Below are positions 1,961-21,426 of a stretch of 45,007 nt of DNA, piece after piece (position 1 is the first letter of the stretch; the number at the start of each line of letters is the position of its first letter). A program made the translations under genes and the position numbers. A model generated the notes under the pieces. The model ran no database searches. It was not told where the DNA came from and was given only the letters and a program-made list of their open reading frames with translations. The stretch is taken from positions 1-45,007 of the forward strand of contig JABDQW010000073.1 of assembly GCA_013042055.1 (NCBI GenBank), written 5' to 3'. The DNA comes from Gammaproteobacteria bacterium (GTDB taxonomy: Bacteria; Pseudomonadota; Gammaproteobacteria; SZUA-229).

Positions 1961-2113
1961 TAAGGAAACTCTGGTTTGTACCGAGTTTCCGTGCGGCTAA
2001 TGGATGTGCCGCCACTTCCAATCACATATGTGGTTGAAAATGAAGAAAAATAAATCGCATTGTAATTTTTCGTGCTGTGATAATTCCTGGATGGACACAT
2101 CAGAGCTTCCTTG
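1961..2113 (-). repeat. Hairpin-chain element, copy 1 (diverged, inverted relative to copy 2)
   Basis: Read on the minus strand, this begins AAGGAAGCTCTGATG and ends GAGTTTCCTTA. It aligns along its full length with 20826-20982. The shared blocks include CCATCCAGGAATTATCA, ATGCGATTT, CACATATGTGATTGGA, GCGGCACAT and GCCGCACGGAAACTC. Several hairpins keep their stems although the bases differ (GGT/ACC here against TGA/TCA in copy 2). It fills the mtaD-ubiG gap and its end abuts the mtaD stop codon (2115-2117). No transposase is present. Confidence 0.85.
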
Positions 2114-20426: not shown

Positions 20427-20468
20427 CGCACCGATGAGAAATAGTAAAATGAGTTGGGGAAGGTACAG

Positions 20469-20807
20469 ATGCCGCAGTTAGTGTTTTTGCCGCATGAAGA
20501 ATTGTGTCCGGAGGGATTGGTCATAGAGGCTGACAGGGGTATGACTATCTGTGATGCCGCACTGGAAAATGGAATAGAGATCGAACATGCTTGTGAAAAA
20601 TCATGTGCGTGTACTACCTGCCATGTCTATATCCGGGAAGGGATGGATTCTCTAAACGAAAATAGCGATGATGAAGACGACATGCTGGACAAAGCTTGGG
20701 GCCTGGAACCGGATTCCCGCCTGAGTTGCCAGGCCAAAGTCGGCGATCAGGACCTCGTCATAGAAATACCGAAATATACAATCAATATGGTTTCCGAAAA
20801 CCACTAA
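20469..20807 (+). CDS. fdx: [2Fe-2S] ferredoxin Fdx of the ISC system
   Basis: ATG 20469 with GGGGAAGG upstream gives MPQLVFLPHEELCPEG, the normal start; an in-frame TTG 15 bases earlier is not required. The 112-residue adrenodoxin-type ferredoxin has its cluster ligands C42, C48, C51 and C87, and the conserved extra cysteine C46, at the same positions as E. coli Fdx. It donates electrons during cluster assembly. After it, a hairpin-chain repeat separates it from iscX. Confidence 0.97.
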   Translation: MPQLVFLPHEELCPEGLVIEADRGMTICDAALENGIEIEHACEKSCACTTCHVYIREGMDSLNENSDDEDDMLDKAWGLEPDSRLSCQAKVGDQDLVIEIPKYTINMVSENH

Positions 20808-20825: not shown

Positions 20826-20982
20826 TTAAGGAAGCTCTGATTAATTCCATCCAGGAATTATCAAATCACGAAAAATAAAAATGCGATTTTTATTTTTCTT
20901 CATGTCCAATCACATATGTGATTGGACATGGCGGCACATTCATGTGCCGCACGGAAACTCTGAATAAATCAGAGTTTCCTAA
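20826..20982 (+). repeat. Hairpin-chain element, copy 2 (157 bp, five near-perfect hairpins)
   Basis: The ends TTAAGGAAGCTCTGATTAAT and, on the opposite strand, TTTAGGAAACTCTGATTTAT form imperfect terminal repeats of about 22 bp. Inside, five hairpins follow one another: TAATTCC/GGAATTA; AAAAATAAAAA/TTTTTATTTTT (20871-20881, 20887-20897); a perfect 30-bp palindrome centred on CATATG (20901-20930); GCGGCACA/TGTGCCGC (about 20931-20950); and GAAACTCTGA/TCAGAGTTTC (20954-20963, 20969-20978). It lies in the fdx-iscX gap. Copy 1 is at 1961-2113. Confidence 0.92.
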
Positions 20983-21180
20983 ACTCGAGAAAATAGCGAT
21001 TCGTGATTGCCAATTCTCGCAACGGCGTATTGACATAAACTGGTTCTGTTACACGCATATCGATAAGGCGCGTCAGGCGATGGCATCGTTGCACGACTGT
21101 ACATACCAATCATGCCGATGCATGCCAGATGCGGTCACGTTCGTGTTTGGATCATGGCCTAAACAGGCATGACGATGTCT

Positions 21181-21203
21181 GTCAGATTCAATTCTGACTT
21201 TTT
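21181..21203 (+). terminator. Possible small terminator or attenuator upstream of iscX
   Basis: GTCAGA-ttcaat-TCTGAC (21181-21198) is followed by TTTTT. The stem is short and only half GC. It lies 23 bases before the iscX start, so it could reduce read-through from fdx into iscX or be chance. Confidence 0.35.
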
Positions 21204-21225
21204 CACACAATATGAGGGCGAGCTG

Positions 21226-21426
21226 ATGGGGCTGAAATGGGTTGATTCACTGGATATTGCGATTGAGTTGAACGAGAAATACCCAGAAACGGATCCAATG
21301 CGGGTCAATTTTGTCGACTTACGTCAGTGGGTACTTGAACTAGATGAGTTTGATGATGAACCCGAGCATTCTGGGGAACGCATTCTCGAAGCGATTCAAA
21401 TGGCCTGGATTGAGGAAAAGGATTGA
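21226..21426 (+). CDS. iscX: IscX, ISC operon iron-binding regulator
   Basis: The start ATG 21226 gives MGLKWVDSLDIAIELNEKYP, which lines up with E. coli IscX and gives the family length of 66 residues; the longer open frame adds 19 residues without support. IscX is a small acidic protein (VDLRQWVLELDEFDDEPE) that binds IscS and iron and tunes cluster assembly. GAGGGCGAG at about 21214-21222 is the ribosome binding site. It is the last isc gene, separated from fdx by 418 bp with the repeat element. Confidence 0.96.
   Translation: MGLKWVDSLDIAIELNEKYPETDPMRVNFVDLRQWVLELDEFDDEPEHSGERILEAIQMAWIEEKD

Follow-up and report, generated by a model that had tools for sequence, protein, structure and literature searches.

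In bacteria, MITEs are generally regarded as decaying sequence whose hairpins are fortuitous. The element described here shares with MITEs of the IS5 family that it is short and intergenic, that no ORF is common to its copies, and that its inverted repeats resemble those of IS5-family elements in the same genome and come with 4-bp YTAR duplications; unlike them, it has an interior that forms a five-hairpin structure conserved across several classes, and each of its ends is itself a hairpin, the left and right inverted repeats differing where local pairing is kept. Similarly dispersed, intergenic and palindromic repeats giving hairpins in transcripts are ERIC in enterobacteria, Correia in Neisseria, and REP/REPIN, whose ends and sizes differ from those of the element. 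REPINs use Y1 transposases and go without target duplications; membership in the REPIN/RAYT group is rejected for the element, which has a 4-bp duplication and DDE partners.

Two further systems come close at the RNA level. Sponge RNAs of the CsrB/CsrC and RsmX/Y/Z type are likewise chains of hairpins with an A(N)GGAX loop on a C-G closed stem; the element differs in being mobile and multicopy, in having two to three GGA sites instead of many, and in that neither a promoter or terminator of its own (in the scan of copy 2, see below) nor an Rfam match was found. QMITE1 and QMITE2 of Coxiella burnetii are MITEs that give rise to small RNAs, according to a report (PMC5896051) in which the word CsrA is absent; unlike the element, QMITE1 measures 300–400 bp and QMITE2 makes duplications of 7–9 bp (PMC10969869), and both are given for one species. 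Among the matches listed in the open-licence literature on IS5 MITEs, on structured or covarying MITEs and on CsrA with transposable elements, the element is undescribed.

The stretch of DNA analysed (the window, 45,007 nucleotides) contains two copies of this element. At 20826–20982 a run of consecutive inverted repeats is found, which belongs to a dispersed family; this copy 2 sits between ORFs which, from their translations, we take to be fdx (20454–20807) and iscX (21169–21426). The neighbours of copy 1, named in the same way, are presumably an mtaD-like gene and ubiG. The features referred to below are the following.

1964..2110, − strand: copy 1 of the element, in the orientation opposite to copy 2
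2002..2004, + strand: GGA in the H4 loop of copy 1, on the CsrA-like strand
2089..2091, + strand: GGA in the H1 loop of copy 1, on the CsrA-like strand
20826..20829, no strand: left 4-bp flank TTAA, putative target duplication
20830..20979, + strand: copy 2 of the element (GGAAGC...TTTCC), five hairpins, without an ORF of its own
20834..20867, − strand: hairpin H1, its outer four pairs lost in copy 2; its 5′ side on the + strand is the left inverted repeat
20850..20852, − strand: GGA in the H1 loop (TCC on the + strand), a CsrA-like motif kept in copy 2
20870..20898, − strand: hairpin H2, 13 A-T-rich pairs, loop GCG on the + strand
20901..20930, − strand: hairpin H3, the perfect 30-bp palindrome, where covariation is strongest
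20931..20950, − strand: hairpin H4
20939..20941, − strand: H4 loop site, consensus GGA decayed to GAA in copy 2
20953..20979, − strand: hairpin H5; its 3′ side on the + strand is the right inverted repeat
20980..20983, no strand: right 4-bp flank TAAA, putative target duplication, matching the left one at three of four positions

The five hairpins and the perfect 15+15 palindrome at 20901–20930 that had been read in copy 2 are real, and the predicted folds lie far below those of shuffled sequences. As RNA, the + strand of copy 2 folds with −72.7 kcal/mol (z −11.3; none of 200 shuffles reaches this value) and its − strand with −72.2 kcal/mol (z −10.0); for copy 1 on its own strand the value is −48.1 (z −5.0). 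Copy 2 is probably a relic, one of its two loop motifs being gone, as TTC replaces TCC on the + strand at 20939–20941 and the GGA of H4 is thereby lost. BLAST reveals far more than two copies in the window's genome, with 30 matches to the element, about 17 of them at least 100 bp long and the others fragments.

The two copies belong to a non-autonomous IS5-type transposable element (MITE), and the transposon part of the original prediction is therefore correct, as judged by the inverted repeats, the 4-bp duplications and the matching IS ends found elsewhere. The terminal inverted repeats are GGAAGCTCTGA/TCAGAGTTTCC. When both inverted repeats were required (134 of 177 copies), identical 4-bp flanks of the YTAR type were found in 75 of 134 copies, where 2000 shuffles of the flank partners gave 23.5 on average and never more than 35; TTAA (40), TTAG (9), CTAA (7) and CTAG (4) are duplicated along with others, and identity drops to 1/134 at 5 bp and 0/134 at 6 bp. 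Target and repeat presumably point to the IS5 group. IS elements of ~1.2 kb with matching ends are present in three carriers (G355, G134 and G313); that of G355 carries GGAACCTCTGATTAATT at both ends, those of the other two do likewise, and their transposases score 326–349 bits to NF033581, the IS5 family. In G313, CGCTGA occurs in both the IS and the MITE, while most others have CTCTGA. The window's genome, a draft of 92% completeness, contains three DDE_Tnp_1 (PF01609) loci, none of which has this repeat, so that its copies may be stranded, or the partner may lie in the unassembled part. In another genome, G178, seven matches have equal score and two identical copies (L242, L244) lie in different flanks, a sign of recent movement; such identical copies at different places may reflect mobilisation by a transposase acting in trans.

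Several insertions (L042, L057, L090, L117 and others) coincide exactly with the upstream gene's stop codon (distance −2), which the duplication can rebuild because the YTAR target contains TAA or TAG. Furthermore, 16 sites consisting of the repeat only were fetched from G000, G002, G004 and G006, comprising about ten palindromes of ~27 bp (L200, L203, L204, L205, L206, L207, L208, L210, L211 and L214) and two forms of ~41 bp (L199, L201). These solo end-hairpins, of which GGAAGCTCTGAATAAATCAGAGTTTCC is an example and several of which have CTAG, TTAA or ATAA duplications, appear to have arisen by deletion between the repeats of the two end hairpins, or to be minimal mobile units.

A covariance model, R1, was built from 13 copies of the window's genome. 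It finds the element (~152 bp) in 27 of 54 genomes of the family, in 75 of 369 of the class and in 39 of 398 of the phylum (37 of them outside the class); the carriers with known names comprise metagenome-assembled Gammaproteobacteria, Thiotrichaceae, Sedimenticola and similar organisms. In copies from other classes, the architecture is retained although the stems differ greatly. The interior is also kept with other terminal repeats in G045 (L115, L116) and G048 (L096), which have GAGGGTGTCGCAAAAG and GAATGCTTTGC..., as if it had changed its transposon ends; in the copies of G006 (L113), too, the interior stands between other end sequences. A partial element (L143) lies on a contig labelled Halobacteria archaeon, which is probably a misbinned gammaproteobacterial one. 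Searches of plasmids with five variants, of phages with one and of viral contigs with one pattern yielded no match. A known RNA family is rejected, as Rfam gave no match in the window and, for eight loci searched at E up to 0.5, no convincing one.

The structure of the element is under selection. To arrive at this, copies were aligned without regard to structure (mafft), substitutions were reconstructed on a FastTree tree and re-placed on the same branches as the null, and column pairs were scored by APC-corrected G with a significance cut-off of E up to 0.05; the procedure is R-scape-like, run with a script of our own and not R-scape itself. The 177 copies (113 from the family, 64 class-wide) were reduced to 145 by requiring a length of 138–158, keeping identical sequences once and excluding 22 truncated, chimeric or other-ended loci. 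In these, five column pairs are significant and all five are predicted base pairs (59 predicted among 11,026 tested). With one copy per genome (74 rows; 57 predicted base pairs among 11,026 tested), 10 of 12 significant pairs are in the structure, one lies within two columns of it and one elsewhere. The 58 class-wide copies gave seven significant pairs, four in the structure and three adjoining a structure pair, the 87 copies of the own family two, both in the structure, and a set with other classes included (169 rows from 197, length 138–166, 20 loci excluded) eight, of which seven are in the structure and one elsewhere. The original prediction of structural selection beyond transposon ends thus holds with many genomes (5/5 and 10/12 pairs) but not within the window's genome alone, whose 13 copies gave no significant column pair. 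Most of the signal comes from H3; H4, H2 and H5 also contribute, and H1 has no significant pair by this test. Poorly folded relatives are under-represented in these sets because all copies were found with a structure-aware model.

The example originally offered for covariation, TGA/TCA of copy 2 replaced by GGT/ACC of copy 1 in the terminal hairpin, was not borne out, as pairing there needs a slip of one base and a bulged A. Copy 1 reads GGAAACTCGGTACAAACCAGAGTTTCC where copy 2 reads GGAAACTCTGAATAAATCAGAGTTTCC, and in the base-for-base alignment copy 1 retains only one of the three cited pairs, T-A having become G.A and A-T having become T.C. Among the 13 copies of the window's genome, two-sided changes are found at none of the 11 pairs of the terminal hairpin, at 7 of 13 pairs of H3, 4 of 13 of H2 and 1 of 8 of H4. 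Across the class the terminal hairpin does covary, with GGAAAC/GTTTCC, GGAACC/GGTTCC, GGAATC/GATTCC and GGAAGG/CCTTCC.

Whether selection acts on RNA or on DNA had been left undecided; the answer leans to RNA, but of the strand opposite to the one described, for reasons of fold and of loop GGA, and this opposite strand looks like the functional one. Taking one copy per genome, its fold is the more stable one in 61 of 74 genomes, that of the described strand in 13. An A.C mismatch on one strand is a G.U pair on the opposite strand; on the described strand, A.C and G.T number 32 versus 13 in other classes, 67 versus 39 class-wide and 146 versus 119 in the own family. The outcome is mixed across ways of counting and is taken as no more than supportive of the opposite strand: G.T and A.C stand at 108 versus 176 per copy, at 39 versus 75 on internal and 181 versus 153 on terminal branches by parsimony, at 36 versus 36 for majority states on mafft columns (where stems are partly misaligned), and at 9 versus 20 (p 0.06) for states common to at least two copies of one genome. 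Such an asymmetry could also stem from shared ancestry, or from a constraint that differs between the two arms.

On the opposite strand, GGA occurs in the loop region of H1 in 156 of 173 copies and of H4 in 141 of 167, as compared with 1/175 in H2, 7/173 in H3 and 1/160 in H5 (181 of 197 copies were used for these counts); with one copy per genome it is present in 70 of 75 for H1 and likewise for H4. The surroundings in H4 are C A N GGA X G, with C, A, GGA and G fixed and N and X free, those in H1 C A GGA X G or C A N GGA X G. Minimum-energy folds of the opposite strand leave one GGA or more fully unpaired within a hairpin loop in 72 of 74 genomes, those of the other strand in 0 of 74; 23 of 200 shuffled strands have any such loop GGA. 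According to one paper, the SELEX consensus for CsrA is RUACARGGAUGU, SELEX hairpins mostly have four or fewer pairs, and CsrB has 22 GGA and loop repeats of the form CAGGA(U/A/C)G (PMC7652899). Another gives an ANGGAX hexaloop placed directly on the stem as the high-affinity form for CsrA/RsmE, N and X being variable or looped out, and states that pentaloops without N also bind (PMC4005645). As a sequence motif, the H1/H4 loop is a position-by-position match to this published high-affinity hairpin.

The gene for CsrA was found in 50 of 53 carriers and in 24 of 27 non-carriers tested, which is compatible with the CsrA reading but does not discriminate, the comparison being uninformative because csrA is nearly universal in the sample; three carriers, G006, G033 and G176, drafts of 93–95% completeness, gave no csrA match. 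One consensus scan around copy 2 revealed no sigma-70-like promoter, and no terminator inside the element.

Regarding genomic context, simple ORF calling for 173 of 177 copies gave 51 +E+, 36 -E-, 29 -E+ and 27 +E- insertions, the neighbour not being called for 30; +E+ and -E- do not differ significantly (51 versus 36, p 0.13). Sense and antisense insertions show no difference in retention of loops or stems (p 0.82 and 0.97), and the fdx locus of five sister genomes has no match to the model. Most copies therefore look dispensable to the host locus, and what is conserved looks like the form that keeps spreading.

The explanation towards which we lean is that this IS5-type MITE of ~150 bp is a mobile Csr/Rsm-binding RNA whose shape is selected. 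The opposite strand would be transcribed, probably by read-through, and the transcript would fold into five hairpins, presenting H4 (a C-ANGGAX-G hexaloop) and H1 (C-AGGAX-G or C-ANGGAX-G) to CsrA/RsmA; selection on the shape would operate in lineages in which the element keeps transposing. The benefit would fall to the element and in trans, e.g., by titration of CsrA, which is more likely than regulation of each neighbour because the neighbouring genes predict neither the orientation of an insertion nor the retention of its loops; the equal loop retention in sense and antisense insertions speaks against a role in neighbouring mRNAs. Against this explanation stand the stems, which are longer than those of most SELEX hairpins, the two to three GGA sites per element as compared with the 22 of CsrB, the negative scan for a promoter around copy 2 and a terminator inside it, the level count of 36 versus 36 mismatches, and the three transposase loci of the window's genome, none of which has this repeat. 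With a model from 13 copies, one architecture is recovered from several Pseudomonadota classes, its stems covarying and the loops of one strand bearing a protein-binding signature; if the CsrA reading is true, the element connects transposable elements with the Csr/Rsm network and offers a concrete case in which selection on RNA structure in a bacterial MITE can be tested directly. Even without CsrA, this is a widespread structured element lacking an Rfam match in the window and eight loci.

A further-reaching version, which we regard as tentative and rather doubtful, makes the element a transposable Csr/Rsm sponge, that is, a selfish 150-bp element of several Pseudomonadota classes, with different IS5-type ends, whose transcript would titrate CsrA. 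Every insertion would then add CsrA-binding capacity to the cell, and transposable elements would exploit the global post-transcriptional regulator of their host, which might lift repression from the transposases by which they are moved.

It is unlikely, although worth serious consideration, that the GGA loops of a MITE with RNA-level structure are read by a factor other than CsrA, be it RNase processing, another RNA-binding protein or an unknown factor. Covariation and loop conservation hold without CsrA, and transcripts of Correia and ERIC are processed by RNase III or RNase E, as stated in PMC10969869; however, H4 agrees with the CsrA/RsmE contact pattern at each fixed and each free position, and nearly all carriers tested have csrA. 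That the structure has no function as RNA, and that template switching at the DNA level in quasi-palindromes makes one-sided mutations two-sided, is improbable. Near-loopless perfect palindromes such as H3 of copy 2 are favourable substrates for it, and H3 is where covariation is strongest, but template switching gives no reason to expect the strand asymmetry, the fixation of GGA beside a free N in just two loops of one strand, or a single architecture across several classes. It is hardly probable, too, that the hairpins act as single-stranded DNA or cruciforms, recognised by the transposase or another DNA-binding protein; the inverted repeats do lie within the end hairpins, and conservation at the level of a mobile element would fit, yet 4-bp duplications and DDE transposase partners require no hairpins and the IS ends inspected show no such local hairpin. 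A cis-acting mRNA structure regulating fdx-iscX or mtaD-ubiG, suggested by both window copies lying in the same sense between co-directional genes, is very improbable given the mixed contexts over 173 copies, and fixed cis-regulation of fdx-iscX is rejected on the five sister fdx loci without a model match.

Copies between rplA and rplJ are present in three genomes (G000, G006 and G001) and as a remnant in a fourth, G004 (L012, L114, L119, L170), with altered ends and with stems that differ between species of a genus at the same locus; in G006 (L113), two tandem copies, also with altered ends, lie between rpsJ and rplC. A vertically conserved leader RNA of ribosomal operons is rejected, since the rplA-rplJ locus of G005 and of other genomes searched has no match; these copies seem to be old insertions whose ends have changed. 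In sister species, the gap between fdx and iscX (L306, L307, L310, downstream of fdx) holds other repeats, e.g., GTAGGAGCGACTTCAGTCGCGA and GTCATTGCGAGCGAAGCG, and looks like an insertion hot spot.
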